Assembly (NCBI GenBank): GCA_026693065.1
Contig: JAPLNA010000122.1
Location: 1-32,545, forward strand
From: Planctomycetota bacterium
GTDB taxonomy: Bacteria; Planctomycetota; Phycisphaerae; SM23-33
Direction: 5' to 3'
Length of the DNA: 32,545 bases
Shown here: piece after piece, positions 2,406 to 21,076 of the stretch
Layout of the letters: the number at the start of each line of letters is the position of its first letter
Numbering within the stretch: position 1 is the stretch's first letter
Made by a program: the position numbers and the translations under genes
The notes under the pieces: model-generated
The model's database searches: none
Seen by the model: only the letters and a program-made list of their open reading frames with translations
Told to the model about the DNA's origin: nothing

Positions 2406-2843
2406 ATGACCGAGTCGCATCCGGACGTCGTAGTATACGTTTGTCACAACTGCATCCCCCCCGGGGCGCGGCTGCCCCGCCAGTGGGACCAGGACGGCTC
2501 TCACGTGGTCGTCCGCCAGGCCCCCTGCACCGGCAAGATCGACGCCCAGTACCTCTTCCGTGGGCTGGAGAGCGGGCTGGACGGGGTGTGCATCGTCGCC
2601 TGCCCCAAGGGCGACTGCCATCTGACCCAGGGCAACTACCGCGCGGAGATGCGAGTCCGCACCGGACGGAAGCTGCTGAGCGAGATCGGCATGGAGCCCG
2701 AACGACTGGCCCTGATCCACGTGGCCAGCACCGACAAGCCCGAGAGCCTCGAGCCGCTGGTTCGCCAGGCCGTCGCGGGCATCTGCCGCACGGGCCCCAG
2801 CCCGATCCGTTTGGCCGCCGCGCCGGCCGCCAAGGTTGTTTGA
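2406..2843 (+). CDS. mvhD: MvhD-family [2Fe-2S] electron-transfer subunit, copy 1
   Basis: This 145-residue protein belongs to the MvhD/FlpD family (hydrogenase iron-sulfur subunit), which carries electrons between HdrA and a partner enzyme through a [2Fe-2S] cluster. The conserved cysteines are visible: VCHNC (C13, C16), PCTGK (C41), and CIVACPKGDCH (C62, C66, C71), followed by the typical GNYRAEMRVRTGRKLL helix and the MEPERL segment. Start ATG 2406 follows GGTGA (2395-2399). It opens the operon, 64 bases ahead of metF, matching the known partnership of MvhD with MetF/MetV and HdrABC in acetogens such as Moorella. The first cysteine region lacks the CxYCAYxxADLAG form of the second copy at 17106, so the two copies probably contact different partners. 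No hydrogenase genes occur in the window. Confidence 0.85.
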   Translation: MTESHPDVVVYVCHNCIPPGARLPRQWDQDGSHVVVRQAPCTGKIDAQYLFRGLESGLDGVCIVACPKGDCHLTQGNYRAEMRVRTGRKLLSEIGMEPERLALIHVASTDKPESLEPLVRQAVAGICRTGPSPIRLAAAPAAKVV

Positions 2844-2855
2844 CATTCACGCGCG

Positions 2856-2892
2856 GGAGGAAACCCCGACCGGCGGCGAGAGGGCCGCCTCC
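2856..2892 (+). other. Intercistronic hairpin between mvhD and metF
   Basis: The 64-base gap contains GGCGGC (2872-2877) pairing with GCCGCC (2884-2889). An alternative outer pairing joins GGAGG (2856-2860) to CCTCC (2888-2892). It could tune metF translation or mRNA processing; this is a structural observation only. Confidence 0.25.
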
Positions 2893-2907
2893 ATCAGGTT
2901 CCCGAGA

Positions 2908-3828
2908 ATGACGACACAGACAGACAAGACGGCGCTGCAAAAGCGAATCGAGTCCGGCAAGAGCGTGGTGCTGGCGCAGGTGGCCCCGCCCGCCGGCGGG
3001 GCAGGCGAGGCGGTCCGCCAGACCGCCCGCAAGTTCGCCGGCAAGGTCCACGCCCTCGGGCTCACCGACAACAGCCGCCAGGTGCGGATGTCGGCGATGG
3101 CGGCGGCTTCCCTGGTCGCCGCCGAGGGCGTCGAACCCCTCTGGCACCTGGTCACTCGCGACCGCAATCGCATCGCCCTGGTCTCCGACGCCCTGGGCGC
3201 CCAGGGGCTGGGTGTCCGCAACGTGCTGTGCACCTCGGGCACGCACCAGACGTTGGGGGCCTTCCGCGCCGCCCGCAACGTCTTCGATATCGACTCGACG
3301 CAGTTGATCCGCCTGCTGGCCAACCTGCCGGCCGACGGCCAGGCCGTCGGGGCGCGGGGGTTTGACTCCGTCGCCCCCTTCTGCCTGGGCGGCGTGGCCA
3401 GCCCGTGTGCCGACCCGCTGGAGTTGCAGGTGCTGCGGCTGTGCAAGAAGCTCACGGCCGGGGCGACCTTCCTGGTCACCGCGCCGATCTTCGACCTGGA
3501 CCGCTTCGGGGCCTGGTGGCGCGAGGTCACCCGCGCGGGGCTGCACGAGAAGGCGGCCATCATCGCCGGCGTCCGCGTGCTGACGACCTCCGACGCGGCC
3601 CGGGCGTACGCCCAGCAGAGGCCCGACCCGATGATTCCGGCCGCCGTTCTGGAGCGCGTAACGAGCGCCCCGGCCGCCGGGGGGCGAAAGGCGGGCATCG
3701 AGCTGGCCTGCCAGACGATCGAGAAACTCCGGGGGATGTCCGGGCTGCGCGGTTTCGACGTCTGCGGCGACGGCGACGAGGAAGCGGCCCTGGAAGTCAT
3801 CGCCGCGTCGGGATTGAGGATCGAGTAG
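2908..3828 (+). CDS. metF: Methylenetetrahydrofolate reductase, MetF-type catalytic subunit with an unusual glutamine at the catalytic acid position
   Basis: A 306-residue TIM-barrel protein of the MetF family (FAD enzyme reducing 5,10-methylene- to 5-methyl-tetrahydrofolate). Landmarks are GLTDNSRQVRMS, RDRNRIALVSDALGAQGLGVRNVL (split over two strands), FDIDSTQLIRLL, and LDRFGAWWREV with the barrel's last strand AAIIAGV. The ATG at 2908 gives an N-terminus of normal family length; a TTG at 2836 overlapping mvhD is less likely. In E. coli MetF the catalytic acid is Glu28 in the motif FEFFPP; here the aligned stretch reads LAQVAPP, so the position is Gln24. The protein may work with the MetV subunit encoded at the operon's far end (17585) and MvhD/HdrA, as in Moorella MetFV-HdrABC-MvhD. 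It may instead bind folate without normal reduction. Family identity is firm, activity is not. Confidence 0.88.
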   Translation: MTTQTDKTALQKRIESGKSVVLAQVAPPAGGAGEAVRQTARKFAGKVHALGLTDNSRQVRMSAMAAASLVAAEGVEPLWHLVTRDRNRIALVSDALGAQGLGVRNVLCTSGTHQTLGAFRAARNVFDIDSTQLIRLLANLPADGQAVGARGFDSVAPFCLGGVASPCADPLELQVLRLCKKLTAGATFLVTAPIFDLDRFGAWWREVTRAGLHEKAAIIAGVRVLTTSDAARAYAQQRPDPMIPAAVLERVTSAPAAGGRKAGIELACQTIEKLRGMSGLRGFDVCGDGDEEAALEVIAASGLRIE

Positions 3829-3830
3829 CC

Positions 3831-5228
3831 GTGGCCTCCAAGTATCATATTCATACGGAGCCCGCCCCGCCCCGCTTCCGACCGATCGGCAAGTTGGGCA
3901 TTGTGGAGTGGCGCGAGGACTGCTCCAGTTGCCACAACTGCGTCAAGCGGGCCTGCGTGTACGGCCTGTTCCGGGACGAGGCCGACGCCCTCCACGAAAC
4001 CCACGACTTCCTGGACTACATTTACCAGTGCAAGGGCTGCCTCAGTTGCGTGCAGAATTGTACCAAGGGCATCCTGACGCGAGTGGTCAACCCCGAGTAC
4101 AAACGGCTGGGCGACGCCTACTTCACCCCCGACATCGTCGCGGTCACCTGGTTCCAGAGCGAGACGGGCAAGATCCCGGTCTCGGGCGGCGGATACAACG
4201 GCCCCTTCAGCGGGGCCGGGTTTGACTCCATGTGGACCGACATGTCCGAAATTGTCCGCCCCACGCGGGACGGCATTCACGGGCGCGAATACATTAGCAC
4301 GTCGGTCAACATCGGGCGCAAGGAACGCCACCTGGCCTTCAAGGACGGCCAGCCCGTGCCTCCCCCACCGCTGCTGGAAATCCCCATGCCGGTGATCTTC
4401 GACGTGATTCCGTCGCGGTGGCGCCGCGGGCCCATCGTCGCCGCCGTCGCCAAGGCGGCCGCTCAGACAGGCCTGCTGACCGTCGTCGACGCCGACGACA
4501 TTCCGGCCTCCCCGGGCCGATCGAACGCCAACATGCTGCCCCAACTGGCTCGGGCCGCCCAGGGCGACGCTTTCGCCGCCGCGCCCGTCGTCATGCTGCC
4601 CGACGGCGAGGATGTCTTCGAGGCCCACCGGGCATTGAAGGCCCGGTCGCCCAACCGCATCGTCGTCGTCCGCACCCGCGCCAACCCGCGGGCCGCCGAC
4701 CGCATCAGTCGCTTCGCCGCCGAAGGCGTCGAGGCCATCTGCCTGACCTTCGACCCCCACGGGCGCGAAGACGCCCCGGCGAACCCCCGCCACGTGCGGG
4801 ACGTCCTGCGGGAGGTCCACCGCCGCCTCATCAAGGACGGCACGAGGGACCAGGTGACGCTGATCTCCTCGGGCGGCATCGCGCTGGCCGAGCACGTCAC
4901 CAAGGCCCTGCTGTGCGGGGCCGACCTGGTTGCCATCGATGTGCCGTTGCTGCTGGCGATGGAATGCCGCCTGTGCAAGGAGTGCGGCCCGGGGCGCCCC
5001 TGCCCCATCGCCCTGGAAAACATCGACCTGGACTACGCCGCCCGCCGCGTCGTCAACCTGGTCGGCGCCTGGCACCAGCAGCTCATCGAGATGATGGGGG
5101 CCATGGGCATGCGGGAGGCCCGACGCCTCCGCGGCGAGGTCGGGCGGTGTATGTTTTACGAAGATCTCGAACGCGACACCTTCGGCCGCCTCTTCGGCCA
5201 ACGCAAGGCCGACCGGCCCGCCCTGTAA
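3831..5228 (+). CDS. Degenerate GltB2-like protein with N-terminal ferredoxin domain
   Basis: The GTG start at 3831 is supported by AGGA (3817-3820) and gives 465 residues. Residues 31-42 (CSSCHNCVKRAC) and 67-77 (CKGCLSCVQNC) are two four-cysteine [4Fe-4S] motifs. The rest follows the FMN-binding domain of glutamate synthase (GltB2): the C-terminus keeps LISSGGIALAEHVTKALLCGADLVAID, a cysteine cluster CRLCKECGPGRPC near residue 379, and the ENIDLDYAARRVVNLVGAW tail. It lacks the GGGMSFGS and GGSYGGTGAAP motifs seen in its neighbour at 5239, which form much of the FMN and substrate site. I infer a non-catalytic or electron-relay partner that pairs with the intact GltB2 next door. It is 2 bases after metF and 10 before the intact copy, so co-translation is likely. 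Confidence 0.75.
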   Translation: MASKYHIHTEPAPPRFRPIGKLGIVEWREDCSSCHNCVKRACVYGLFRDEADALHETHDFLDYIYQCKGCLSCVQNCTKGILTRVVNPEYKRLGDAYFTPDIVAVTWFQSETGKIPVSGGGYNGPFSGAGFDSMWTDMSEIVRPTRDGIHGREYISTSVNIGRKERHLAFKDGQPVPPPPLLEIPMPVIFDVIPSRWRRGPIVAAVAKAAAQTGLLTVVDADDIPASPGRSNANMLPQLARAAQGDAFAAAPVVMLPDGEDVFEAHRALKARSPNRIVVVRTRANPRAADRISRFAAEGVEAICLTFDPHGREDAPANPRHVRDVLREVHRRLIKDGTRDQVTLISSGGIALAEHVTKALLCGADLVAIDVPLLLAMECRLCKECGPGRPCPIALENIDLDYAARRVVNLVGAWHQQLIEMMGAMGMREARRLRGEVGRCMFYEDLERDTFGRLFGQRKADRPAL

Positions 5229-5238
5229 GGTTATCCGC

Positions 5239-6789
5239 ATGACTATCGCCCCCAATACAACCAGCCCTCAGTCGCCGGAGGATTTCGTCGCCGAGCCGGG
5301 CTTTGCGGCCGTCTCGCGGGAGACCCGCGTCGCGCCGCCTCGGTATCGCAACGAGATCGGCAAGTTCGTCGTCCCCCGCCCGGACGCCTGCGGCCAGTGC
5401 GGGCGGTGCGGCGCCCACGGCGTCCACGTGCGCCCCTGGCGGTACAACCTGATCATCCGCCCCTTCGAGTACCGCTGCATCGGCCCGGACTGCAAGACGA
5501 GCGGCCGGTATTGCGTCGGCGCCTGCCCGAACAAGGCCCTCTCGGTCACGCTCAATCCGGTCTTCGAGACCATCGGCGACTTCCGCTGGACGCCCGATCT
5601 GATCGTCTCGACCTGGAAGATGGCCGAAACGGGCCAGTTGCCCCCCTCGTTCCTCGAGAGCGAGACGGGCAACTCCGGCGGCGGGTTCGATCGCCTGCGG
5701 TTCCGCTTCCCCGCCGCCCCGCCCAAGGACCTGCGGCGGGAGGATATCTCCACCAAGCTGCTCCTCAACCGCCGCGACGACGGACGCGAGAAGGTCACCA
5801 TCGACGTGCCCTGGTACGGCGGGGGAATGAGCTTCGGCTCGACCAACATTCACGCCCTGCTGGCGAAGGTGCGGGCGGGCAAGGCCTGGAACACCTTCAG
5901 TTGCACCGGCGAGGGCGGATACCCCCAGCGGTTCATCCCCTACGCCGACCACATGATCGTCCAGGTGGCCACCGGGCTCTTCGGCGTCCGCGAGGAAACC
6001 ATCCAGCGGGCGAAGATCGTCGAGTTCAAGTACGCCCAGGGCGCCAAGCCCGGCCTGGGCGGGCACCTGCTGGGCAGCAAGAACACCCCCTCCGTCGCGG
6101 CGATGCGAGAGACCGTGCCGGGCGTGTCGCTGTTCAGCCCGTTCCCGTTCCACAGCGTCTACTCCGTCGAAGACCACAAGAAGCACCTCGACTGGATCGC
6201 CCACGTGAACCCGCGCGCCCTGCTTTCGGCGAAGGTCTCCACCCCGACCGACGTGGACATGGTCGCCGTCGGGGCCTACTACGCCGGGGCCCACATCGTG
6301 CACACCGACGGCAGTTACGGCGGCACGGGGGCCGCTCCCAACGTGGCCAAAAAGAACATCGCCATGCCCATCGAGTACGGCATCGGCAAGGTGCACCAGT
6401 TCCTCGTCAACGAGGGCGTCCGAGACAAGGTCACGCTGATCGCCTCGGGCGGCGTGCGAACGCCGGCCGACATCGCCAAGGCCATCGCCTTGGGCGCCGA
6501 CGGCATCGTCACGGGCACGGCCGAGCTGGTCGCCATCGGCTGCATCCGCTGCACCGCCTGCGAGAGCGGGCGGGGCTGTGCCCGCGGCATCGCCACGACG
6601 GACACGGAACTGCTGGAGTTGGTCACCATCGACTGGGCGACCCAGCGGCTGGTGAACCTGTACAGCGCCTGGCGCGAGGGGCTGATCGACATCCTGTACC
6701 GCCTCGGGCTGGACTCGGTGTCGGCCCTGCGCGGGCGGACGGACCTGTTGATGCACCTGGATTACGAAGGTTCAGACGGAGCGGCCTGA
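5239..6789 (+). CDS. gltB: GltB2-type glutamate synthase FMN domain protein with N-terminal iron-sulfur domain
   Basis: This 516-residue protein matches the stand-alone FMN/2-oxoglutarate domain of archaeal-type glutamate synthase. The N-terminus carries CGQCGRC (C51, C54, C57) and C80, C85, C92, C96, enough for iron-sulfur binding of ferredoxin type. The catalytic domain shows GGGMSFGSTN near residue 194, GGSYGGTGAAPNVAKKN near 358, LIASGGVRTPADIAKAIALGAD, and the cluster CIRCTACESGRGC near 435 that corresponds to the glutamate-synthase [3Fe-4S] site. It would reduce the imine from 2-oxoglutarate and ammonia to glutamate, with ammonia from the amidotransferase encoded by the next gene. No GltD-type NADPH subunit is present, so electrons may come through its ferredoxin domain from Hdr/NuoF. 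N-methylglutamate synthase and related three-part enzymes share this domain and cannot be excluded. The stop overlaps the next start as ATGA. Confidence 0.85.
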   Translation: MTIAPNTTSPQSPEDFVAEPGFAAVSRETRVAPPRYRNEIGKFVVPRPDACGQCGRCGAHGVHVRPWRYNLIIRPFEYRCIGPDCKTSGRYCVGACPNKALSVTLNPVFETIGDFRWTPDLIVSTWKMAETGQLPPSFLESETGNSGGGFDRLRFRFPAAPPKDLRREDISTKLLLNRRDDGREKVTIDVPWYGGGMSFGSTNIHALLAKVRAGKAWNTFSCTGEGGYPQRFIPYADHMIVQVATGLFGVREETIQRAKIVEFKYAQGAKPGLGGHLLGSKNTPSVAAMRETVPGVSLFSPFPFHSVYSVEDHKKHLDWIAHVNPRALLSAKVSTPTDVDMVAVGAYYAGAHIVHTDGSYGGTGAAPNVAKKNIAMPIEYGIGKVHQFLVNEGVRDKVTLIASGGVRTPADIAKAIALGADGIVTGTAELVAIGCIRCTACESGRGCARGIATTDTELLELVTIDWATQRLVNLYSAWREGLIDILYRLGLDSVSALRGRTDLLMHLDYEGSDGAA

Positions 6790-9467
6790 TGATACGCCAC
6801 CTGCCCACTATGGACGAGCTGGACGAGCGGATCCGATCGCTTACGGCGGCCCGCGCGGGCTTCCGCCCGGAGGGCGACTGGGCCCGAGTCAGCCCCGAGG
6901 CCGAAGGCGGCTGCGGCGTGACCGGCTTCGCCTGCACCATCCCCGTCGGCGGAAAGCACATTTACGAGCCCTCCATCCAGATGCGAAACCGGGGCAACGG
7001 CAAGGGCGGCGGCATCGCCGCCTGCGGGCTCGTCCCCCAGGACATGGGCGTCTCCCGCCAGATCCTCGACGAGGATTACATCCTCCAGATCGCCCTGCTG
7101 GACCCCAAGGTCAAGGGCGAGGTCGAGAAGAAGTTCATCGAGCCGTTCTTCGAAATCCACGCGGCCATGCTGGTCGACACCGTGGACGACCATCGCGACG
7201 TCGAGCTGCTGGAGGTCCGCCCGCCGGACATCGCCCGCTACTTCGTCCGCGTGAAGAACGACGTGCTGGACCGCTTCGCCAAGGAGAAGCACCTGGCGAT
7301 CCTGGACCGCCGGGAGTTGGAGGACGAGTTCGTCTTCCAGAACTCCATCGCCCTCAACGGCGAGTTCTACGCCTCTCTGGGCGAGAAGCGGGCGTTCGTG
7401 GTCTCGCACGCCCGGAACCTGATCATCATGAAGGTCGTCGGCTTCGCCGAGGCCTGCGTGCAGTATTACAAGATGGCCGACACCCGCGCCCACGTGTGGA
7501 TCGCCCACCAGCGATACCCCACGCGCGGGCGAGTCTGGCACCCGGGCGGGGCGCATCCGTTCATCGGGATGAACGAGGCCCTCGTGCACAACGGCGACTT
7601 CGCCAACTATCATTCCGTCTGCGAATACCTGGCCCAACGAAACCTCTTCCCGCAGTTCCTCACCGACACCGAAGTCTCGATCTTCCTGTTCGACCTGCTC
7701 CACCGCACCTACAACTACCCGCTCGAATACATCATCGAGGCCATCGCCCCGACGACCGAGCTGGACTTCGACCGCCTGCCCGACGCCCGGCGGGCGGTGT
7801 ACGGGCAGATCCAGAACGCGCACATTCACGCGGCCCCGGACGGCCCGTGGTTCTTCATCATCGCACGCAGCCTCGTCGAACGCGGGGCCTTCCAGTTGCT
7901 GGGCATCACCGACACGGCCATGCTCCGCCCGCAGGTCTTCGCCCTGCAGGAGGGCAAGGACGTCTCGATCGCCCTGGTCTGCTCGGAAAAGCAGGCCATC
8001 GACGCCACGCTGGCGAGCCTGGCCTCCGAAGACGCCCGTTTCACCCCGGTGGCCGACATGTACTGGAACGCCCGCGGCGGCAGCCATTCCGACGGCGGGG
8101 CGTTCCTGATGACCGTCGAGCCCACGGACGGCCCCGCCGTTGTTCCCGCGGCCGGGCGACGCTACGAATTGAAAGTGACCAATAAGTTCGGCCAGTCCGT
8201 CTCGACCCCACCCGGCCAGGTACACTGCGACCTGTCCGCGGCCCCCAAGGCCGTCGCCAACTCCAACGGCGACGAGTCGGCCATTCGCGGGCTGATCGAA
8301 AGCGGCAACGCCGGGGCATTCTTCGGCTACCTGCGAGACCACGTGCCCGAGATGAGTTTCGACCGCCTGCGGCGGTTTGTGGATCGCCTGGCCGATGAAG
8401 CCGTCGCGGGCGCTCCGGCGGCGGGCATCGAGGCCCTGACGTTGTGCATGGACCGCCGCTACCCCAGCGGCGACAAGAAACGCTCCAGCGTGCTGACGAT
8501 CCTCCGGACGGGCGTGGAGAAGATCTTCTCCGCCCAGCCGCTCTGGGACGCCGCGGGCAACGGGCACGCGTTCGCCCGAGCCACCTGGGACGTCCGCGGC
8601 AGCCTGCGAGGCCCGCAGGGGCAGGAGACCTCCCTGCTGATCGACGCCCGGCGATTCCAGCCCGAAGGCCCCGACTGCGATGCGACCCTCGCCGTCAAGG
8701 CCTACCAGTTGGGCTGGCGGCACATGATCCACTACAACAGCCGCGGCACGCGGTTCCACGGGGCCGGGTATGGCGCCGGAACCACCGGCCTCCGAATCGA
8801 CTGCTACGACAACCCCGGCGATTACCTCGCCAGCGGCATGGACGGGCTGGAGATCGTCGTCCACGGCAACGCCCAGGACCAGCTCTGCCAGATCGCCAAG
8901 AGCGGGCGCTGCATCATCCACGGAGACGTCGGGCAGACGTTCCTCTACGGGGCCAAGGGCGGAGAGATCTACGTCCTGGGCAACGCCGCCGGCAGGCCCA
9001 TGATCAACGCTGTCGGGCGCCCGCGCGTGGTCATCAACGGCACGGCGTTGGACTTCCTGGCTGAGAGTTTCATGGCCGGCGATCCGCTGGCCGGGGGCGG
9101 GTTCGCCATCGTCAACGGGCTGCACTGCCAGGCTGACGGAAAAGTCGTGCCCCTCGAACTGCCCTACCCCGGCAGCAACCTGCTGTCGCTGGCCTCGGGC
9201 GGAGCGATCTACGTCCGCGACCCGCACAAGACCCTAGTCACCGAGCAGCTCAACGGCGCGATCTTCCGCAAGCTCTCGGCGGCCGACTGGAAACTGATCC
9301 ACCCCTACCTGCTCGAGAACGAACGGCTCTTCGGCATCGACGTCGAGCGGGACCTGCTGACCGTGGACGGCGTGCGGCGGGAGCCCGCCCAGGTGTACAC
9401 GAAGGTCATGCCCCCCTCGAACGAAGACCCCGAGGTCGAGGACGAACTGGAAGGGCTGGGAGGCTAG
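6789..9467 (+). CDS. Fused class II glutamine amidotransferase and GXGXG domain (GltB1-GltB3-like)
   Basis: An 892-residue protein starting at ATG 6789 (GGAG at 6778-6781), overlapping the gltB stop by one base. Residues about 42-455 are a class II amidotransferase: GGCGVTGFAC places the nucleophile candidate at Cys42, and AHQRYPTRGRVWHPGGAHPF and EALVHNGDF (near 237-265) are the conserved glutamine-site segments. From about residue 590 comes a GXGXG beta-helix (GAGYGAGTTGLRIDCYD, HGNAQDQLC, GDVGQTFLYGAKGG, GNAAGRPMINAVG), the C-terminal domain of glutamate synthase. Canonical GltB has amidotransferase, central/FMN domain, then GXGXG in one chain; archaeal forms split all three. Here the outer two are fused and the FMN domain is separate upstream. 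Cys42 would have to be exposed by removal of the first 41 residues if it works as an N-terminal nucleophile, which I cannot verify. N-methylglutamate-synthase-like chemistry is an alternative. Confidence 0.82.
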   Translation: MIRHLPTMDELDERIRSLTAARAGFRPEGDWARVSPEAEGGCGVTGFACTIPVGGKHIYEPSIQMRNRGNGKGGGIAACGLVPQDMGVSRQILDEDYILQIALLDPKVKGEVEKKFIEPFFEIHAAMLVDTVDDHRDVELLEVRPPDIARYFVRVKNDVLDRFAKEKHLAILDRRELEDEFVFQNSIALNGEFYASLGEKRAFVVSHARNLIIMKVVGFAEACVQYYKMADTRAHVWIAHQRYPTRGRVWHPGGAHPFIGMNEALVHNGDFANYHSVCEYLAQRNLFPQFLTDTEVSIFLFDLLHRTYNYPLEYIIEAIAPTTELDFDRLPDARRAVYGQIQNAHIHAAPDGPWFFIIARSLVERGAFQLLGITDTAMLRPQVFALQEGKDVSIALVCSEKQAIDATLASLASEDARFTPVADMYWNARGGSHSDGGAFLMTVEPTDGPAVVPAAGRRYELKVTNKFGQSVSTPPGQVHCDLSAAPKAVANSNGDESAIRGLIESGNAGAFFGYLRDHVPEMSFDRLRRFVDRLADEAVAGAPAAGIEALTLCMDRRYPSGDKKRSSVLTILRTGVEKIFSAQPLWDAAGNGHAFARATWDVRGSLRGPQGQETSLLIDARRFQPEGPDCDATLAVKAYQLGWRHMIHYNSRGTRFHGAGYGAGTTGLRIDCYDNPGDYLASGMDGLEIVVHGNAQDQLCQIAKSGRCIIHGDVGQTFLYGAKGGEIYVLGNAAGRPMINAVGRPRVVINGTALDFLAESFMAGDPLAGGGFAIVNGLHCQADGKVVPLELPYPGSNLLSLASGGAIYVRDPHKTLVTEQLNGAIFRKLSAADWKLIHPYLLENERLFGIDVERDLLTVDGVRREPAQVYTKVMPPSNEDPEVEDELEGLGG

Positions 9468-9469
9468 CG

Positions 9470-10030
9470 ATGAGCGAGGCATTGCCCTGGAACGATCCGA
9501 CATTCCTGCGCGACGTGGAACGCCGCAGCGGCGCCTCCGTCAGCGCCTGCTTCCAGTGCCACAAGTGTTCCACCGGCTGCCCGGTGGCCCCCGAGATGGA
9601 CGTGATGAGCAGCCAGATCATGCGGCTGATCCACCTGGGCGCCCGCGACGAGGCCCTGGCCAGCCAGTCCATCTGGCTGTGCGCCTCCTGCGAGGCCTGC
9701 ACGACGCGGTGCCCGCAGGGCATCGACATCGCCGCGGTGATGGACACGCTGCGGATGATGGCCGTCGAGGCCGGCGTGACCCTGGGCGACGCGAGGGGCA
9801 ACAAGTTCAATACATCATTCCTCTCGAGCGTCCGCCGGCACGGGCGGGTGTTCGAGATGGGGCTGATGACCGCGTACAAACTCCGCAGCGGCGACCTGCT
9901 GGGCGACGTGGGCAAGGTGCCCGGCATGCTGAAGCGCGGCAAGCTGGCCCTCTGGCCCAAGAGCAGCGGCAACGCCAAGGAAGTCCGCGAGGTCTTCAAA
10001 CGGGCCGACCAGGAGGAGAAAAACCGATGA
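9470..10030 (+). CDS. hdrC: Heterodisulfide reductase subunit C-like ferredoxin
   Basis: A 186-residue protein with two complete four-cysteine [4Fe-4S] motifs: CFQCHKCSTGC (C27, C30, C33, C37) and CASCEACTTRC (C71, C74, C77, C81), each followed by Pro, then the DTLRMMAVEAGV helical segment typical of HdrC. HdrC passes electrons from HdrA to the non-cubane clusters of HdrB. It begins 2 bases after the amidotransferase stop and overlaps hdrB by ATGA, so subunits are probably made in equal amounts. No membrane segments are seen, so this is the soluble HdrABC type, not HdrDE. Since no methanogenesis genes are present, its substrate is probably not CoM-S-S-CoB. Confidence 0.92.
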   Translation: MSEALPWNDPTFLRDVERRSGASVSACFQCHKCSTGCPVAPEMDVMSSQIMRLIHLGARDEALASQSIWLCASCEACTTRCPQGIDIAAVMDTLRMMAVEAGVTLGDARGNKFNTSFLSSVRRHGRVFEMGLMTAYKLRSGDLLGDVGKVPGMLKRGKLALWPKSSGNAKEVREVFKRADQEEKNR

Positions 10031-10917: not shown

Positions 10918-11828
10918 TTCTCGACAACGCCCCCGCTACTCCAGCCGCCCCCGCGAAGGCCAAGCCCGCCCCGTGCGGCTCGGTCCTCGTCGCCGGGGGT
11001 GGCATCGCCGGCATCCAGGCCGCCCTGGACCTGTCGGCCGCCGGGTTCGGCGTGTACCTCGTCGAGGAGAGCCCCACCATCGGCGGGACGATGGCCCGGC
11101 TGGACAAGACCTTCCCCACCGGCGACTGCGCCACCTGCACGATCTCGCCCAAGCTGGTGGCCTGCCTTCGCGACCTGAACGTCGAAGTGCTCACGATGGC
11201 CGACGTGATGACCCTCGAGGGCGAGCCGGGCCAGTTCACCGCCCAGGTCCGCCTCCGCCCCCGCGGCGTCGACGCCGACAAGTGCACCGGCTGCGGCGAC
11301 TGCGTGGAGCACTGCCCCGTCCGCAACGTGCCGCAGGCGGTCGCGACCTTCGCCCCGGCCCATCCGGGCCAGGCCGACGACCGCGCCCTGATGGAAGAGA
11401 TCCTCGTCAAGTATTCCGCCGAGCCCTCGGTGCTGATCCCCGTTCTGCAGGACATCAACGAGCGCCGCGGCTACCTGCCCCGGCCTATGCTTGAGGATCT
11501 GGCGGCGCGGTTGGGCATTCCGCTGGCGGAGATCCTGCGGGTGGCGAGTTTCTACAACGCCTTCAGCCTCACGCCCGTCGGGCGGCACGTGATCGAGGTC
11601 TGCCTCGGCACGGCGTGCTTCGTCCGCGGGTCCAACCTGCTGCTGGAGCGGCTGGAAGACCTGGTGGGCGTCCCCGCCGGCGGGACCGACAAGGACAGGC
11701 GCTTCACCCTCCGCACGGTCCGGTGCATCGGCTGCTGCGCCCTGGCCCCGGCGATGCGGATCGACGGCGTGACGTTCGGCAAGATGAAGCTCGACAAGGT
11801 CGGTGACATCCTGGAGCGGTTCCAATGA
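10914..11828 (+). CDS. HdrA N-terminal FAD/ferredoxin half fused to NuoE
   Basis: This 304-residue protein joins two parts. Residues about 21-135 are the front of HdrA: FAD-binding LVAGGGIAGIQAALDLS, EESPTIGGTMARLDKTFPTGDC, and the four-cysteine motif CTGCGDCVEHC (C124-C134). The HdrA match then stops, just where ordinary HdrA would continue towards its PFPQAVP segment. Residues about 155-304 are NuoE, the 24-kDa thioredoxin-fold subunit of NADH dehydrogenase: VLQDINERRGYLP, then CLGTAC (C230, C235) and CIGCC (C271, C274) for a [2Fe-2S] cluster. The missing HdrA remainder is found at residues about 210-510 of the protein encoded at 13754, after nuoF. Electrons could pass from NuoF through this [2Fe-2S] centre directly to the HdrA flavin. 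Overlap with nuoF is ATGA at 11825. Confidence 0.88.
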   Translation: MILDNAPATPAAPAKAKPAPCGSVLVAGGGIAGIQAALDLSAAGFGVYLVEESPTIGGTMARLDKTFPTGDCATCTISPKLVACLRDLNVEVLTMADVMTLEGEPGQFTAQVRLRPRGVDADKCTGCGDCVEHCPVRNVPQAVATFAPAHPGQADDRALMEEILVKYSAEPSVLIPVLQDINERRGYLPRPMLEDLAARLGIPLAEILRVASFYNAFSLTPVGRHVIEVCLGTACFVRGSNLLLERLEDLVGVPAGGTDKDRRFTLRTVRCIGCCALAPAMRIDGVTFGKMKLDKVGDILERFQ

Positions 11829-13738
11829 CCACGGCGATTCGGACAGAGAAAGACCTCGACGCGCTGGCCCGCGAGGGCGAGGGCTCGCTGTACCCGCGGG
11901 GCCTGAAGCTGCTGATCGGTTCGGCCAGTTGCGGCATCAGCGCTGGCGCCCGCGAGGTGGAGGCCGCCGCCCTCGAGGCCCTCAAGGCCGCCGGGCTCGA
12001 CGCCGTCGTCGCCCGCACCGGCTGCATCGGCTTCTGCCAGGCCGAGCCCCTCGTCGACGTCATCCTGCCCGAAGGCCCGCGCGTGTGCTTCTCGAAGGTC
12101 ACGCCCGCGGGCATCCGTTCGTTGATCGAGGGCTACGCCAAGACGGGGCACCTGAAGGCCGACGCGGCCTTGTGCCGCTTCACCGAGGAGAAGTACGTTT
12201 CCGCCGGCACGACCCGCCCGTACCCGCCCGGGACCAACGGGCTGGGTCAGGTGCCCGAGTGGTCCACGGTGGACTTCTACCGCCCGCAGGAGCGGGTGAT
12301 CCTGCGGAATTGCGGGTCGATCGATCCGATGTCGCTGGGCGAGGCCGTCGCCCGCGGGGCCTATCGCGGCGCCCTCCGCGCCCTGACGCGAATGACCCCC
12401 GAGCAGGTCGTCGCCGAGATCACCGCCTCGGGCCTGCGAGGCCGCGGCGGAGCGGGCTTCCCCACCGGGCGAAAGTGGGACGCCGCCCGCACCCAGGAGG
12501 CCGACGCGAAGTACTTCATCTGCAACGCCGACGAGGGCGACCCGGGCGCGTTCATGGACCGCAGCGTCATGGAAGGCGACCCGCACGCCGTGCTCGAGGG
12601 CATGCTGATCGGCGCGTACGCCATCGGAGCGGCCCGTGCGTTCGTGTACGTCCGCAGCGAATACCCCCTGGCCGTGAGCACGATGGAACACGCCATCGCC
12701 CAGGCCAAGGCCGCCGGCCTGCTGGGCAAGGATATCCTTGGCAGCGGGTTCGACCTGGAGATCGAGATTCGCCGCGGGGCCGGTGCGTTCGTCTGCGGCG
12801 AGGAGACGGCCCTGATCGCGTCCATCGAAGGCCGCGCCGGCGAACCCCGCCCGCGTCCGCCCTACCCGGCGGTCAAGGGGCTCTGGGGCAAGCCGACGGT
12901 CATCAACAACGTCAAGACGCTCTCGAGCATCGGGGCGATTCTCGCTCGCGGGGCCGCCTGGTACGCCGGTCGCGGCGTCGAGGGCAGCCGCGGCACGACG
13001 GTGTTCTCGCTCGTCGGGGCGGTCAAGAACACCGGGCTGGTCGAGGTGCCCCTGGGCATTTCGCTGCGTCAGATGATCTACGACATCGGGGGCGGGCCCA
13101 GCGGCTCCAAGCCCGTCAAGGCCGTCCAGACCGGCGGGCCCTCCGGCGGGTGCATCCCGGCGGCCATGCTCGATCTGACCATCGACTACGAGAAACTCGC
13201 CCAGGCCGGCGCCATGATGGGCTCGGGCGGCATGATCGTGATCGACGAAGGCACGTGCATGGTGGACCTGGCGCGGTTCTTCCTGAGCTTCACGGCCGAG
13301 GAGTCCTGCGGCAAGTGCGCCCCGTGCCGGGAAGGCACCAAGCAGATGCTCCGGATTCTCACGCGGATCTGCGAGGGCGAAGGCAAGAGCGAAGACTTGC
13401 AGACGCTGCAGCGTTTGGCCACGACGATCAAGGCCGCCAGCCTTTGCGGGCTGGGGCAGACCGCCCCCAACCCCGTGCTGACGGCGATGCGATATTTCGG
13501 GCCCGAGTTTGAGGCCCACGTGAAGGACCGTAAGTGCCCCGCCGGCGTCTGCCGGAACCTGACGACGTTCAAGGTGGACGAGTCGGCGTGCATCGGGTGC
13601 GGGCGGTGCGTGAAGGTATGTGCGGTTTCGGCCGTCGCCGGAACGGCGAAGAAGGCCCACCGGATCGACGAGGCCCTCTGCACGCGGTGCGGGGCCTGCC
13701 GGAGCGTCTGCCCCGCCGACGCCGTCATTAACGTTTGA
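11825..13738 (+). CDS. nuoF: NuoF/HndC-type NADH-binding flavoprotein with extra ferredoxin domain
   Basis: A 637-residue soluble NuoF of the kind found in bifurcating hydrogenases and Hdr systems. Residues 25-105 form a thioredoxin-like [2Fe-2S] domain with only C36, C67 and C71 visible; the usual first cysteine is not there. Next come the FMN/NADH domain (GLRGRGGAGFPTGRKW near 203-218, NADEGDPGAFMDR near 234, GAGAFVCGEETAL near 318), an SLBB domain (GISLRQMIYDIGGG), the N3-type motif SCGKCAPCREG with C541, and a C-terminal pair of [4Fe-4S] motifs, CIGCGRCVKVC and CTRCGACRSVC. It should oxidise NADH or reduce NAD at FMN and pass electrons to NuoE and HdrA. It sits between the HdrA-NuoE fusion and the NuoG/HdrA fusion. 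NADP rather than NAD cannot be ruled out. Confidence 0.93.
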   Translation: MTTAIRTEKDLDALAREGEGSLYPRGLKLLIGSASCGISAGAREVEAAALEALKAAGLDAVVARTGCIGFCQAEPLVDVILPEGPRVCFSKVTPAGIRSLIEGYAKTGHLKADAALCRFTEEKYVSAGTTRPYPPGTNGLGQVPEWSTVDFYRPQERVILRNCGSIDPMSLGEAVARGAYRGALRALTRMTPEQVVAEITASGLRGRGGAGFPTGRKWDAARTQEADAKYFICNADEGDPGAFMDRSVMEGDPHAVLEGMLIGAYAIGAARAFVYVRSEYPLAVSTMEHAIAQAKAAGLLGKDILGSGFDLEIEIRRGAGAFVCGEETALIASIEGRAGEPRPRPPYPAVKGLWGKPTVINNVKTLSSIGAILARGAAWYAGRGVEGSRGTTVFSLVGAVKNTGLVEVPLGISLRQMIYDIGGGPSGSKPVKAVQTGGPSGGCIPAAMLDLTIDYEKLAQAGAMMGSGGMIVIDEGTCMVDLARFFLSFTAEESCGKCAPCREGTKQMLRILTRICEGEGKSEDLQTLQRLATTIKAASLCGLGQTAPNPVLTAMRYFGPEFEAHVKDRKCPAGVCRNLTTFKVDESACIGCGRCVKVCAVSAVAGTAKKAHRIDEALCTRCGACRSVCPADAVINV

Positions 13739-13753
13739 CCACAGGACACGAGA

Positions 13754-16700
13754 GTGACCATGGAAGCGACATCCGCCGATCACGTGGCCGTCACCGTCGA
13801 CGGGCGCACCTCGCAGGTGCGGGCCGGCACGACGATTCTCGACGCCGCCCGACAAATGGGCATTGCCATCCCCACGCTCTGCCACTACCGCGGGCTGAAC
13901 CCCTACGGGGCCTGCCGCGTCTGCGTGGTGGAAGTGGAAACCCCGCGAGGCCCGCGCCAGGTCGCCTCGTGCAGCTATCCCCTTGACGCCCCCACCGTCG
14001 TCCACACCGACACCGACGCCGTCCGCCAGAGCCGCCAGACCGTCCTGGAACTGCTGCTGGCCCAGGCGCCCGATTCGACCGAGCTGCAAACCCTCGCCGC
14101 CGAGATGGGCGTCAAGGCCACCGCGTTCGAGAAGGCCCCCAAGGGCAAGTGCGTGCTCTGCGGGCTGTGCGTGCGGGTGTGCAACGAACTGATGGGGCGC
14201 GGGGCGATCAACATGTTCGGCCGCGGCGCGCCGCGGAAGGTCCAGACCGCCTTCGGCGAGCCCAGCGACCAGTGCCAGGCCTGCGGTGCCTGCGCCGTCG
14301 TCTGCCCGACCGGGGCGATCGACCTGGCGGCGATCACCGCCCGGCACATTCAGCCGCACATCACGCGGTACGACCAGTATCTGACGGCCCGCCCATCGAT
14401 CGACATGGCACACCCTCAGGCGGCCCCGCGCGTGCCCTCGATCGATCGCGAGAACTGCCTGCACTTCCGCACGGGCGAGTGCGGGCTCTGCAAGGAAGTC
14501 TGCCAGGCCGGAGCGATCGACTACGATCAGCAGGAAACCACCCGCGACCTCACCGTCGGGGCCGTCGTGCTCACGCCGGGCTTCGAGGCCTTCGACGCCA
14601 CGCGCCGGGGCGAGTTCGGGTACGGCTTCGCCCGCAACGTGGTCACGAACGTGCAGTTCGAACGGCTTTTGTCGGCCTCGGGCCCGACGGCAGGGCACGT
14701 GCAAAGGCCCTCCGACGGCAAGGCGCCCAGGAAACTCGCCTTCATCCAGTGCGTCGGCTCGCGCGACACCGGCTGCGATAACGAGTACTGCTCCAGCGTC
14801 TGCTGCATGGCCGCCACGAAGGAAGCCATCCAGGCCAAGGAACACGAGCCCGACCTGGACGTGACGATCTTCTTCCTGGACCTCCGGGCCTTCGGCAAGG
14901 ACTTCGACCGCTACTGCGAGCGGGCGAAGAACCAGTTGGGCGTGCGGTACGTGCGGAGCTTCATCTCGCGAACGTACGAGATGCCCGAAACGAAGAACCT
15001 CGCCCTGACGTACCTGGACGCGAACATGAAGCGAACGACCGAGGAATTCGACATGGTCGTCCTGTCGCTCGGGCTCGAGCCCAGCGCGACGCTCCAGCAG
15101 CAGGCCGAGCGGCTCAAGGTGGCCCTCAACCGCTGGGGCTTCGCCCAGACCACCGAGCTGGACCCGCTGACCACCAGCCGTCCGGGCGTGTTCGTGGGCG
15201 GCACGTTCCAGGAGCCCAAGGACATTCCCGAGACGGTGATGCAGGCCACCGCGGCGGCCGCCAAGGCCATGACGCTGCTGGCGCGGTCTCGCGGCTCGGC
15301 CGTCAAGGTCAAGAAGTATCCGCTGGAGCGGGACGTCACGGACGAGCCGGCGCGGATCGGGGTGTTCATCTGCCACTGCGGGAGCAACATCGCTTCGGTG
15401 GTGGACGTCGCGGCGGTCGTGAAGGCCGCCTCGGCCCTGCCCAACGTCGTGCTGGCCGAGCACAACACCTACACCTGCGCCGACGACACGCAGGACCGCC
15501 TCAAGGACAAGATCGACGAGTACCGCCTCAACCGCGTAGTGATCGCCTCGTGCACGCCGCGGACGCACGAGCCCATCTTCCGCGACACGCTGCGGGACGC
15601 CGGGCTCAACCAGTACCTCGTCGAGATGGCCAACATCCGCGACCAGTGCTCCTGGGTGCACTCGGGCGACCCGGTCAAGGCGACCGCCAAGGCCATCGAC
15701 CGGGTCCGCATGTCCGTCGGGCGGGCCGCTCGGCTGGTCCCCCTGGCCGAAGAAACCATCCCCGTCAAGAACTCCGCCCTCGTCATCGGAGGCGGCGTGG
15801 CGGGCATGACGGCGGCGCTGGCGCTGGCCGATCAGGGCTTCCCCGTCGAACTGGTCGAGAAGTCCGACGTTCTGGGCGGCACGGCCCGGCAGATCCACAC
15901 CACGCTGGACGGGGCCGACGTGCAGGCCTACCTCGCCCGCGCGATCGAACGCGTCGGCAAGCACCCGAGGATCAAGCTGCATCTGAACTCCCACGTGGCC
16001 AAGGTCGAGGGCGGCATCGGCGACTTCACCTCGCACCTGGTCACCGGCGAACAGACCGCCGAGATCACCCACGGCGTGGCCGTCCTGGCCACTGGCGCCC
16101 TCGAGGCCAAGCCCACCACCTACGGTTACGGGCAAAGCCCCAGCGTCCTCACCCAAGTGGAACTCTCCGAACGCCTCGCCGCCGGCACGCTGGACATCCC
16201 GGCCGGGGCGACCATCGCGATGATCCAGTGCGTCGAGCAGCGCACCGCCGAGCGCCCCTATTGCAGCCGCGTCTGCTGCACCCAGGCCGTCAAGAACGCC
16301 CTGGAACTCCGCCGGAAGTACCCGCAGGCCCGCGTGGTCGTGTTGTACCGCGACATGCGGACGTACGGATTCCGCGAGGCCGCGTATCGCCAGGCCCGCG
16401 AGGCCGGCGTCCTGTTCGTCCGCTATGAAGCCGACGCCCCGCCGCAGGTCGCCCTCAACGGCCAGTCGATCCGCGTGAGCATAACCGAACCGGCCCTCGG
16501 GCGGGCGATGGACCTCCAGGTCGATCTGCTGGCCCTGGCGGCCCCCATGGTCCCCCGGGCCGACCGGAAGGAACTCTCCGACCTCCTCCGCGTTCCGCTG
16601 AACGCCGACGGGTTCTTCCTGGAGGCTCACGTGAAGCTCCGGCCGGTGGATTTCGCCAGCGAGGGCCTGTTCCTGGCCGGCACGGTCCACGCACCCAAGT

Positions 16701-17116
16701 TCCTCACCGAAACGATCAGCCAGGCCAACGCCGTCGCCGCACGGGCTGCGGCGATTCTCTCCCGCAAGCGAATGCCCGTCAGCGGGCAGATCGCCTGGGT
16801 CGACCCGGAGAAGTGCATCTCCTGCATGACGTGCGTTCACGTGTGCCCGTACGGGGCCCCGAAGGTCGGCACGGACAACAAGGCCGAGGTGCAGTCGGCC
16901 GTCTGCATGGGGTGCGGCAACTGCACCGCCGAGTGCCCCGCCAAGGCCCTGTCCCTGCGGCACTGTATCGACGTGCAGGTGCTGGGCGCCATCGGCGGCC
17001 TGCTGACGCCCGACGCGGCGGCGCGGGGGTTCGAGCCGGTGTACCCCGAGCAGGTCGGGGTAGCGAGGCCCAAGTGGCACGCCGCCCCGGCCCCGGAGAC
17101 CCAACATGAACGATAA
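13754..17116 (+). CDS. hdrA: NuoG N-terminus / HdrA C-half / second HdrA fusion, iron-sulfur flavoprotein
   Basis: A 1120-residue protein. GTG 13754 lies 7 bases after AGGA; ATG 13760 is an alternative. Residues 10-85 are a plant-type [2Fe-2S] domain (C43, C54, C57, C73). Residues 133-184 hold two [4Fe-4S] motifs (CVLCGLCVRVC, CQACGACAVVC). The His-plus-three-Cys N5 motif of NuoG is absent. Residues about 215-510 are the back half of an HdrA (HPQAAPRVPSIDRENC, CVGSRD, YCSSVCC, VFVGGTFQEPKDIP) with no Rossmann segment of its own. Residues about 533-1000 are a second HdrA: GVFICHCGSNI, FAD site VIGGGVAGMTAALALA (677-692), CVEQR and YCSRVCC, VHAPKFLTET. Residues 1021-1061 add two [4Fe-4S] motifs. 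This is the likely flavin branch point for electron bifurcation. The end overlaps mvhD by 11 bases. Confidence 0.9.
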   Translation: MTMEATSADHVAVTVDGRTSQVRAGTTILDAARQMGIAIPTLCHYRGLNPYGACRVCVVEVETPRGPRQVASCSYPLDAPTVVHTDTDAVRQSRQTVLELLLAQAPDSTELQTLAAEMGVKATAFEKAPKGKCVLCGLCVRVCNELMGRGAINMFGRGAPRKVQTAFGEPSDQCQACGACAVVCPTGAIDLAAITARHIQPHITRYDQYLTARPSIDMAHPQAAPRVPSIDRENCLHFRTGECGLCKEVCQAGAIDYDQQETTRDLTVGAVVLTPGFEAFDATRRGEFGYGFARNVVTNVQFERLLSASGPTAGHVQRPSDGKAPRKLAFIQCVGSRDTGCDNEYCSSVCCMAATKEAIQAKEHEPDLDVTIFFLDLRAFGKDFDRYCERAKNQLGVRYVRSFISRTYEMPETKNLALTYLDANMKRTTEEFDMVVLSLGLEPSATLQQQAERLKVALNRWGFAQTTELDPLTTSRPGVFVGGTFQEPKDIPETVMQATAAAAKAMTLLARSRGSAVKVKKYPLERDVTDEPARIGVFICHCGSNIASVVDVAAVVKAASALPNVVLAEHNTYTCADDTQDRLKDKIDEYRLNRVVIASCTPRTHEPIFRDTLRDAGLNQYLVEMANIRDQCSWVHSGDPVKATAKAIDRVRMSVGRAARLVPLAEETIPVKNSALVIGGGVAGMTAALALADQGFPVELVEKSDVLGGTARQIHTTLDGADVQAYLARAIERVGKHPRIKLHLNSHVAKVEGGIGDFTSHLVTGEQTAEITHGVAVLATGALEAKPTTYGYGQSPSVLTQVELSERLAAGTLDIPAGATIAMIQCVEQRTAERPYCSRVCCTQAVKNALELRRKYPQARVVVLYRDMRTYGFREAAYRQAREAGVLFVRYEADAPPQVALNGQSIRVSITEPALGRAMDLQVDLLALAAPMVPRADRKELSDLLRVPLNADGFFLEAHVKLRPVDFASEGLFLAGTVHAPKFLTETISQANAVAARAAAILSRKRMPVSGQIAWVDPEKCISCMTCVHVCPYGAPKVGTDNKAEVQSAVCMGCGNCTAECPAKALSLRHCIDVQVLGAIGGLLTPDAAARGFEPVYPEQVGVARPKWHAAPAPETQHER

Positions 17117-17588
17117 CCCTGTCATTCTCGCCTTCTGCTGCCACTACTGCGCCTACGCCGCGGCGGACCTGGCCGGCTCGATGCGGCTGCAATACCCCGC
17201 CAACGTCCGCGTCCTCAAGCTGCCCTGCACCGGGAAGGTGGAGGTCAACTACATCCTGGCGGCCTTCGAACGCGGGGCCGACGGGGTGTTCATCGCCGGC
17301 TGTCTCGAAGGCGGCTGCCACTACCTCGAAGGAAATCTCCGCGCCCGGCGGCGCGTCGAGCGGGCCAAGAAGATCCTCCAGGAGATCGGTCTGGAGCCCG
17401 AACGGCTGGAGATGTACAACCTCTCCTCCGCCGAGGGGCCCCGCTTCGCCCAGATCGCCACGGAAATGACCGAGCGGATCGCCGCCCTGCCCCCCAGCCC
17501 GCTCCGCCCCGACCGCGCCACCGTGGAGAAGAACGTGCAGGAAATGGCCGCGGCTGCCCAGGCCGCCGTGGCGGGAGATAACCGATGA
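17106..17588 (+). CDS. mvhD: MvhD-family [2Fe-2S] electron-transfer subunit, copy 2
   Basis: A 160-residue protein with the canonical MvhD signature: CCHYCAYAAADLAG (C11, C12, C15), PCTGKV (C41) and GCLEGGCHYLEGN (C66, C71), followed by the LLQEIGLEPERLEMYNLSS-like segment. It starts inside the end of the HdrA gene (11-base overlap) and overlaps metV by ATGA, so it is translationally tied to both. That placement argues it is the direct link from the second HdrA module to MetV/MetF. It is closer to the family norm than the copy at 2406, and the two share layout but have clearly diverged, so duplication is not recent. The C-terminal 30 residues form an Ala-rich tail. Confidence 0.92.
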   Translation: MNDNPVILAFCCHYCAYAAADLAGSMRLQYPANVRVLKLPCTGKVEVNYILAAFERGADGVFIAGCLEGGCHYLEGNLRARRRVERAKKILQEIGLEPERLEMYNLSSAEGPRFAQIATEMTERIAALPPSPLRPDRATVEKNVQEMAAAAQAAVAGDNR

Positions 17589-18268
17589 TTGTCGCCGACC
17601 GAAAGTCCATCAGCGAAATCCGTGACATGATCAAGGGGCATGACCGCGTCCTCCTCGTCGGATGCGGCACCTGCGTCACCGTGTGCCTGGCCGGCGGGGA
17701 ACGCGAGGTGGGCATCCTCGGCTCGGCCGTCCGCATGTCCCTCAAGCTCATCGGGCGAGGCCACGTCGTCGTCGACGAGTGCGTCATCGAACGCCAATGT
17801 GAGGACGCCTTCATCGACGCCCTGGCCATCCGCGGCGTCGAGTACGACGCCATCTGCTCCCTCGGCTGCGGGGCGGGCGTCCAGGCCCTCGCCGAGCGGT
17901 TCCCCGACAAGGCCGTTTACCCTGGCCTCAACACCCAGTTCATCGGCATCCTCGAAAACCAGGGCGTCTGGGCCGAGAAGTGCGCCGCCTGCGGCGCCTG
18001 CCGACTCGGCGAGTTCGCCGCCGTCTGCCCCATCACCCGCTGCGCCAAGCGGCTCTTCAACGGCCCCTGCGGCGGCAGCCGTCAGGGCAAGTGCGAAATC
18101 ACCGCCGACCGCGACTGCGCCTGGCAGCTCATTTACGACCGCGCCAAGGCCCTGGGCATCCTGGACAAGTTCGAGGCCGTCGCCGGCCTCCAGGATTGGT
18201 CCACCAGCACCGACGGGGGCCCGCGCAAAGTCGTCCGCGAAGACCAGTGCATCGCCAGCCTGGAGTAG
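17585..18268 (+). CDS. metV: MetV, zinc-type partner subunit of methylenetetrahydrofolate reductase
   Basis: A 227-residue protein of the MetV family, the accessory subunit that links MetF to HdrA/MvhD in acetogens. The N-terminal part shows GCGTCVTVC (C27, C30, C34) and a Rossmann-like core (EREVGILGSAVRMSL, CSLGCGAGVQ). The C-terminal part carries the diagnostic run CAACGACRLGEFAAVCPITR from about residue 133, then CAKRLFNGPCGGSRQGKCEI and CAWQLIYDRAKALGILD. It closes the operon twelve genes after mvhD-metF opened it, so the met genes bracket the Hdr, Nuo and Glt genes. This bracketing is the main reason to treat the operon as one system. No other Wood-Ljungdahl gene is in the window. Confidence 0.92.
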   Translation: MIVADRKSISEIRDMIKGHDRVLLVGCGTCVTVCLAGGEREVGILGSAVRMSLKLIGRGHVVVDECVIERQCEDAFIDALAIRGVEYDAICSLGCGAGVQALAERFPDKAVYPGLNTQFIGILENQGVWAEKCAACGACRLGEFAAVCPITRCAKRLFNGPCGGSRQGKCEITADRDCAWQLIYDRAKALGILDKFEAVAGLQDWSTSTDGGPRKVVREDQCIASLE

Positions 18269-20983: not shown

Positions 20984-21047
20984 CGCGTCGACTCCCAGAG
21001 GACCGGCGTTGCGGCGCCGCCCTGCCGCGGCCACGCACGCCGAGAAA

Positions 21048-21076
21048 AGTATACTCCCGGGCCCGGAGCTTCTCAA
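21048..21076 (-). promoter_or_regulatory. Sigma-70-like promoter of the histidine kinase gene
   Basis: On the reverse strand TTGAGA (21076-21071) is followed after exactly 17 bases by TATACT (21053-21048); each matches its consensus at 5 of 6 positions. The -35 box contains the TGA stop codon of the upstream PQQ gene (21073-21075). The spacer holds the palindrome CCGGGCCCGG, which could be an operator. The leader would be about 60 bases. Confidence 0.6.

Follow-up and report, generated by a model that had tools for sequence, protein, structure and literature searches.

We analysed a 32,545-nt stretch of DNA (hereafter the window) from a Planctomycetota-type metagenome-assembled genome (MAG; 5.68 Mb, 441 contigs, 93% complete) and found on its plus strand an operon of twelve genes (2406–18268) that probably encodes a glutamate synthase (GOGAT) linked to heterodisulfide reductase (Hdr) subunits, and not a hybrid of one-carbon (C1) and nitrogen metabolism. 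An earlier note, made from the letters of the window alone, had described the operon as a co-directional set of MetFV, Hdr, two MvhD, NuoEF and Glt parts, and both reading frames and Pfam matches bear this out. The gene families stand as named there, while three labels were refined: g8 is a fusion of the HdrA N-terminal piece with NuoE, g10 joins a NuoG head to two HdrA units, and g3 is a degenerate paralogue of g4. According to the earlier note such a combination is not known to have been described, and we found no description in the literature on glutamate synthase with Hdr, MvhD, MetF or NuoEF, with most subscription papers outside the coverage. Judged by its sequences, the gene set points to a kind of glutamate synthase not described before. 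Neighboring genes are spaced by 2–64 bases or overlap by 1–11 bases (reading-frame starts and stops), and the following domain calls come from Pfam and NCBIfam profile searches of the window proteins:

2406–2843, plus strand: g1, mvhD, MvhD/FlpD-type [2Fe-2S] subunit (Pfam PF02662, 87 bits)
2908–3828, plus strand: g2, metF, MetF-like subunit (Pfam PF02219, MTHFR, 71.6 bits)
3831–5228, plus strand: g3 (G3), GltB2 paralogue, degenerate, starting at GTG and bearing two [4Fe-4S]-type motifs
5239–6789, plus strand: g4 (G4), glutamate synthase GltB2 flavin mononucleotide (FMN) domain, FeS motifs at the N terminus (PF01645, 288 bits)
6789–9467, plus strand: g5 (G5), class II glutaminase fused to a GXGXG domain (Pfam GXGXG, weak glutaminase match)
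9470–10030, plus strand: g6, hdrC, HdrC-like 4Fe-4S subunit (Pfam/NCBIfam)
10027–10917, plus strand: g7, hdrB, HdrB-like subunit with both CCG cysteine motifs (PF02754)
10914–11828, plus strand: g8, HdrA N-terminal piece fused to NuoE (Pfam thioredoxin-like [2Fe-2S], NCBIfam)
11825–13738, plus strand: g9, nuoF, NuoF with NADH/FMN site and N3 cluster and a C-terminal 2x[4Fe-4S] domain (NCBIfam nuoF_fam, E 3e-146; Pfam Nuo51; motifs)
13754–17116, plus strand: g10, NuoG-type [2Fe-2S] head and two HdrA units (Pfam/NCBIfam; start GTG 13754 or ATG 13760)
17106–17588, plus strand: g11, second mvhD (PF02662, 173 bits)
17585–18268, plus strand: g12, metV (PF12225, MetF C-terminal family DUF5981, 118.6 bits)

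Relatives of G3, which is the operon's most distinctive gene, were collected by a scan of named genome contigs that used an alignment of six G3 sequences, and the best 80 of at least 557 loci were kept, a sample biased toward close relatives of the window G3 (loci are given L numbers and genomes three-digit G numbers). Upstream of G3 there is an mvhD at 77 of the 80 loci, the remaining three beginning at contig starts, and G4 follows G3 in 79, the exception stopping at a contig end. Where the contig leaves room, G5 comes after G4 in 61/64 loci (misses at L073, L105 and L123, the stretch of L123 opening with a G5), and Hdr genes are found downstream of G5 in 42/48. The record titles name 15 phyla; nearly all of these records are MAGs, so bin errors are possible in this spread. 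Because the same order recurs in many genomes, we do not regard the operon as a product of chance. The earlier note had made its proposal depend on other genomes keeping glt genes beside hdr and met genes, and such genomes are found repeatedly. Among 60 related genomes 26 match G3 at E 0.001, with a strong match in only 8, including the window genome. The nearest relatives of the window (L035, L037/L038 and L039, genomes G014, G006 and G018) have no hdrC-hdrB between G5 and g8 and carry an extra hdrC/hdrA(/mvhD) cassette downstream of metV; AcsB was not found in these three genomes.

The G3-G4-G5 block carries the residues of a complete GOGAT core. G5 has the class II glutaminase set Cys42 (N-terminal-type Cys), Arg242, Asn268-Gly269 and Asp293; after removal of duplicate loci, as for all residue counts of G4, G5 and HdrA, the nucleophile Cys is present in 62/64 rows (2 gaps) and Arg, Asn, Gly and Asp in 64/64. 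G4 shows the GEGG and AQGAKPGxGG motifs of an FMN/2-oxoglutarate barrel, aligns to the large chain of NADPH-dependent GltS (2vdc/1ea0, ~6e-52) and keeps the FMN/2-oxoglutarate loop of that enzyme. Its Glu, Lys and Gln are found in 80/80 rows and the last Lys in 78/80 (2 gaps). In these alignments the GOGAT residues are invariant wherever they can be read.

G3 aligns with G4 over 407 columns in hhalign (probability 100, E 3e-58) and is a degenerate paralogue of it. Its Glu_synthase match in Pfam covers only profile positions 260–368, that of G4 positions 60–368, and it lacks the AQGAKPG...SPFPFH segment present in G4. The motif WTDMSEIVRPTRDGIHGRE of G3 is nearly invariant across 50 sequences, and residues 117–150, the most invariant stretch, have the lowest model confidence (predicted local distance difference test, pLDDT, <50). 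Going by this model, the segment may become ordered only on a partner, or may belong to a shared active site. A role of G3 as a mere iron-sulfur adaptor was considered and is weakened, because three distant G3s have dropped several cluster cysteines and yet keep the WTDMSEIVRPTRDGIHGRE-type motif. At L073, L041 and L177:4769-7627 G3 and G4 are fused in one frame, and in genome G107 G4 lies on a different contig from G3.

Regarding the genomic context, AmtB, PII, NrpR or GlnA (Pfam names) are located near 25 of the 80 loci (AmtB 13, PII 12, NrpR 10, GlnA 5). Two orders illustrate this proximity, PII-GlnA-mvhD-metV-metF-G3-G4 at L127 and GlnA-mvhD-G3-G4-G5 at L097. In 13 of 50 operon-bearing genomes no PF01645 match >46 bits lies outside G3/G4, among the matches listed; this absence is provisional because most of these genomes are MAGs. 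Another 16/50 hold a PF01645 match besides G3/G4.

On the electron-input side, both an NADH-binding NuoF and an HdrA with a bifurcation-type Glu/Lys pair are present, which agrees with the earlier note's idea of NADH oxidised at NuoF and feeding HdrA flavins. NuoF as in the window occurs at 13/80 loci. At 29/80 loci the HdrA N-terminal piece is continuous with the remainder of the protein in one frame, mostly with ~1.5 kb between the two matches, and at L078 and L063 Pfam places a Fer4_20/Pyr_redox_2 (NfnB/GltD-like) domain in this gap; one-frame HdrA sequences were inspected directly at L087, L093 and L102, and L061 has an HdrA without insert. As predicted from these domains, the entry point of NAD(P)H is either NuoEF or the NfnB/GltD insert, with modules swapped between loci. 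The pair E356/K409 serves to recognise bifurcating HdrA flavins (PMC9430772). The window g10 has the equivalent E301/K354 (numbered from the 13760 start), and the pair is present in 43/43 HdrA rows; the second HdrA flavin unit is variable among rows. The cysteines of the HdrB CCG motifs are found in 42–44 of 45 rows, the rest being gaps. The residues kept in HdrA and HdrB would permit bifurcation but do not demonstrate it. MvhD, a known partner of HdrA, adjoins the Glt block even at loci without Hdr and MetF (L121, L097). In the HdrCBA-MvhD-MetVF system of Sporomusa, pull-downs with MetF recovered HdrA and HdrB, and pull-downs with MvhD recovered these two as well as MetF (PMC9430772).

The MetF-like subunit differs from a catalytic MetF at the decisive positions, which we mapped on the intact MetF of the window genome and on human methylenetetrahydrofolate reductase (MTHFR), using E. 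coli numbering. The window protein has Gln, Thr and Ala in place of Glu28, Asp120 and Gln183. In the enzyme, mutants at these positions are almost inactive or poor at binding folate: Glu28Gln leaves ~0.01% and Asp120Asn 0.3% of kcat, and Gln183Ala raises Km >250-fold (PMC11094777); Asp120 has been termed invariant and essential in MTHFR (PMC9900621). The fold itself is predicted to be that of MTHFR (AlphaFold2, pLDDT 92), with MTHFRs as top Foldseek matches. From its residues, the window MetF is probably not a working methylene-tetrahydrofolate (methylene-THF) reductase. Operon MetFs were assigned to context classes by script, 18/76 rows being cut by contig ends. In the Hdr-bearing operons examined the folate-anchoring Asp is lost in 48/50 (47/48 plus the window; L174 keeps it), and on cut contigs 16/18 lack it (L050 and L118 retain it). 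Of the readable operon MetFs, only those of the window and L052 lack the catalytic Glu. All 32 readable MetFs fetched from outside the operon in operon-bearing genomes keep Glu, Asp and Gln (2 more are incomplete), and at another place in the window genome MetV and MetF form an intact pair. A quick tree built with the key columns masked groups the 64 Asp-less MetFs and L118 as one set (support 99), and this Asp-less clade covers many phyla. No MetF was found at 9/80 loci, including L074 with its full Hdr-Nuo set. The earlier note's electron branch to methylene-THF reduction finds no support here, given the substituted residues, the wide Asp-less clade, the intact pair elsewhere and the operons without MetF. 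MetF as a pseudo-enzyme in every operon was rejected, as Asp is kept in all ten MetV-adjacent operons and at L060, L174, L050 and L118. At L070:1-21868 two operons stand in tandem, one MetV-adjacent with an intact MetF and one Hdr-bearing with an Asp-less MetF.

A link to the Wood-Ljungdahl pathway is loose. The window genome has FTHFS and CdhC/AcsB, and PF03598 (CdhC/AcsB) was found in 5/8 G3-bearing genomes vs 11/52 others in the set of relatives. AcsB was found in only 23/50 operon-bearing genomes, and the chromosome-level records G072 and G101 lack it. On these counts the operon was rejected as a strict Wood-Ljungdahl marker.

From gene order, domain make-up, the kept GOGAT and HdrA residues and the altered MetF residues we infer how a complex might form and operate. 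Ammonia set free from glutamine by G5 would serve the G4 FMN domain to aminate 2-oxoglutarate to glutamate, with G3, as non-catalytic paralogue, probably supporting G4/G5. Electrons would enter from NADH at NuoF, or in many relatives at the NfnB/GltD-like domain inserted in HdrA, pass via 2Fe-2S domains to the bifurcation-type HdrA flavin and reach the FMN by way of MvhD and G3/G4. The MetF-like subunit, probably flavin-binding, may dock or relay electrons between Hdr/MvhD and the GOGAT core. The GOGAT couple lies higher than that of methylene-/methyl-THF, at about −0.1 V and hence above −200 mV, so this exergonic branch could drive the reduction of a second acceptor of low potential, for example ferredoxin; alternatively, HdrB could use a disulfide. 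For NADH and for methylene-/methyl-THF, −320 mV and −200 mV are given (PMC8760232). More tentatively, the operon may encode an electron-bifurcating glutamate synthase that splits NAD(P)H electrons at HdrA, the high-potential branch leading to glutamate and the low-potential branch to reduced ferredoxin, by which anaerobes would recover energy from ammonium assimilation. The same tentative proposal holds G3-G4-G5 to be a portable GOGAT core docking on Hdr-Nuo, Hdr-Nfn, MetVF or, in one planctomycete, a complex I/Hyf-like membrane arm.

Several observations weigh against a Hdr-linked glutamate synthase, and we discuss them together with the alternatives. The 80 loci analysed are the best-scoring among at least 557 G3 relatives. 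When 294 Planctomycetota genomes were drawn and searched with G3 at E 1e-60, 7 were positive including the window genome; of the six others, only L174 shows the full operon, with metV, and in five (L175–L179) tblastn searches using the window proteins detected none of mvhD, metF and hdr. L175 and L176 are short contigs, L176 showing G3 alone. The Hdr operon is therefore kept in one large G3 group, and G3-G4-G5 also occurs without Hdr. Such more distant sets without Hdr genes, like the MetV-adjacent operons with no Hdr genes beside them, would fit a GOGAT and an NAD(P)H-fed Hdr complex that act as separate enzymes, share operon and regulation and form no common complex. We regard this as unlikely, given that MvhD adjoins the Glt block even without Hdr and MetF (L121, L097) and that the gene order is kept across phyla. 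A similarly low probability is assigned to the proposal of the earlier note, a bifurcating complex passing NADH electrons to ferredoxin, methylene-THF reduction and glutamate and so tying C1 flux to nitrogen assimilation. Its part list equals the HdrABC-MvhD-MetVF enzyme of Moorella and Sporomusa, and the window genome has FTHFS and CdhC/AcsB, but the Gln/Thr/Ala of the window MetF, the loss of Asp in 48/50 Hdr-bearing operons, the intact MetV-MetF pair elsewhere in the genome, the nine loci without MetF (L074 among them) and the patchy AcsB (23/50; absent in G072 and G101) speak against it. Asp is kept in the ten MetV-adjacent operons (e.g. L127, with PII and GlnA adjoining) and in the Hdr-bearing L060 and L174, so at these loci a C1–GOGAT link is possible.

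Further counterpoints concern the reaction itself. No ammonium gene was identified by Pfam within the 32.5 kb of the window, and AmtB, PII, NrpR and GlnA were not found at the six phylum-drawn loci. A GltB-typical PF01645 frame of at least 1400 aa exists in 21/50 operon-bearing genomes, and the window genome has a second, canonical GltB frame of 1534 aa. Moreover, conserved catalytic residues cannot separate GOGAT from related transfers such as N-methylglutamate synthesis. MgsABC and GlxBCD are examples of split GltB-like sets that serve other roles, and curated models give G3 and G5 low scores or none, as might be expected if G3-G4-G5 catalysed another amido or amine transfer, for instance like N-methylglutamate synthase. 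We consider this quite improbable in view of the GlnA, PII, AmtB and NrpR neighbors, the GltS FMN/2-oxoglutarate loop kept by G4 and the 13/50 genomes with no other strong GOGAT match among those listed. A Hdr-linked glutamate synthase is accordingly the interpretation we favor.

A different gene neighborhood is seen in genome G186, where genes for complex I/Hyf-like membrane subunits stand downstream of G3-G4-G5, all on one strand (L179:6110-11425, minus strand; L180:7288-9099, minus strand). This set comprises two Proton_antipo_M, NADHdh, and 49-kDa-type and 20-kDa-type subunits; the [NiFe] CxxC motif was not seen in the 49-kDa frame. The arrangement possibly represents a GOGAT core with an ion-pumping arm.

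Further genes of the window lie outside the operon:

1259–2143, plus strand: LysR-type regulator upstream of the operon, a possible local regulator (Pfam)
18401–25804, minus strand: one 2467-aa frame with PQQ/TPR, CHASE, PAS, histidine kinase and response regulator domains (Pfam)
25929–29129, minus strand: 1066-aa PQQ-repeat protein adjoining the giant kinase (Pfam)
29126–29728, minus strand: 200-aa frame without Pfam match
31235–32542, minus strand: 435-aa frame without Pfam match

Conserved regulation by LysR was rejected: a similar LysR is present in only 2/86 loci searched, which places it outside the conserved core. RNA regulators were not found in the window, and at 18 other loci nothing but a tRNA turned up.

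A central route by which nitrogen enters cells runs through glutamate synthase, which normally spends a strong reductant on a downhill reaction. If our interpretation is correct, a GOGAT built on Hdr would let energy-limited anaerobes recover part of that energy drop, nitrogen assimilation would join the known outlets of flavin-based bifurcation, and a concrete candidate would be at hand for the second partner of Hdr-type complexes. For annotation, the residues need checking before a metF or metV found in an Hdr operon is counted as a Wood-Ljungdahl or C1 marker.

Among known systems, the type IV MTHFR of Moorella thermoacetica and Sporomusa ovata (HdrCBA-MvhD-MetVF) shares the cluster of HdrA, HdrB, HdrC, MvhD, MetF and MetV (PMC9430772, PMC8760232, PMC5736913), all of which Pfam finds together in the window operon. 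In the Moorella HdrA, too, a GltD domain is inserted, as in many relatives of the window operon. In contrast, no GltB-like genes are described for type IV MTHFR in the excerpts of these papers, while the window operon has a full GOGAT core and a MetF without the folate residues. HdrL of Desulfobacterium autotrophicum and type III HdrA or HdrA9-11 of methane archaea carry an NfnB/GltD-like NAD(P)H domain on HdrA as in the operon relatives, and HdrL has an adjoining MvhD as in the operon; GltB-like genes are not described alongside in the parts of the sources available (PMC2702500, PMC12054007, PMC9012536). The methanogen MvhADG-HdrABC complex has in common with the operon the HdrA Glu/Lys signature (E356/K409, 5odc chain) and the HdrB CCG motifs, whereas the operon is without hydrogenase subunits and has an NADH module and GOGAT instead. 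The NADPH-dependent (GltBD), ferredoxin-dependent (Fd-GltS) and F420-dependent (FrhB-linked, methanogens) glutamate synthases share with it the glutaminase, FMN and GXGXG domains and their conserved residues (PMC3087415, PMC9012536). The window operon differs from them, as far as the excerpts describe them, in its duplicated FMN domain (G3/G4), in the fusion of glutaminase and GXGXG (G5) and in an input through MvhD/HdrA/NuoEF or HdrA-NfnB in place of GltD, ferredoxin or FrhB; swappable electron-input modules are a feature of both.

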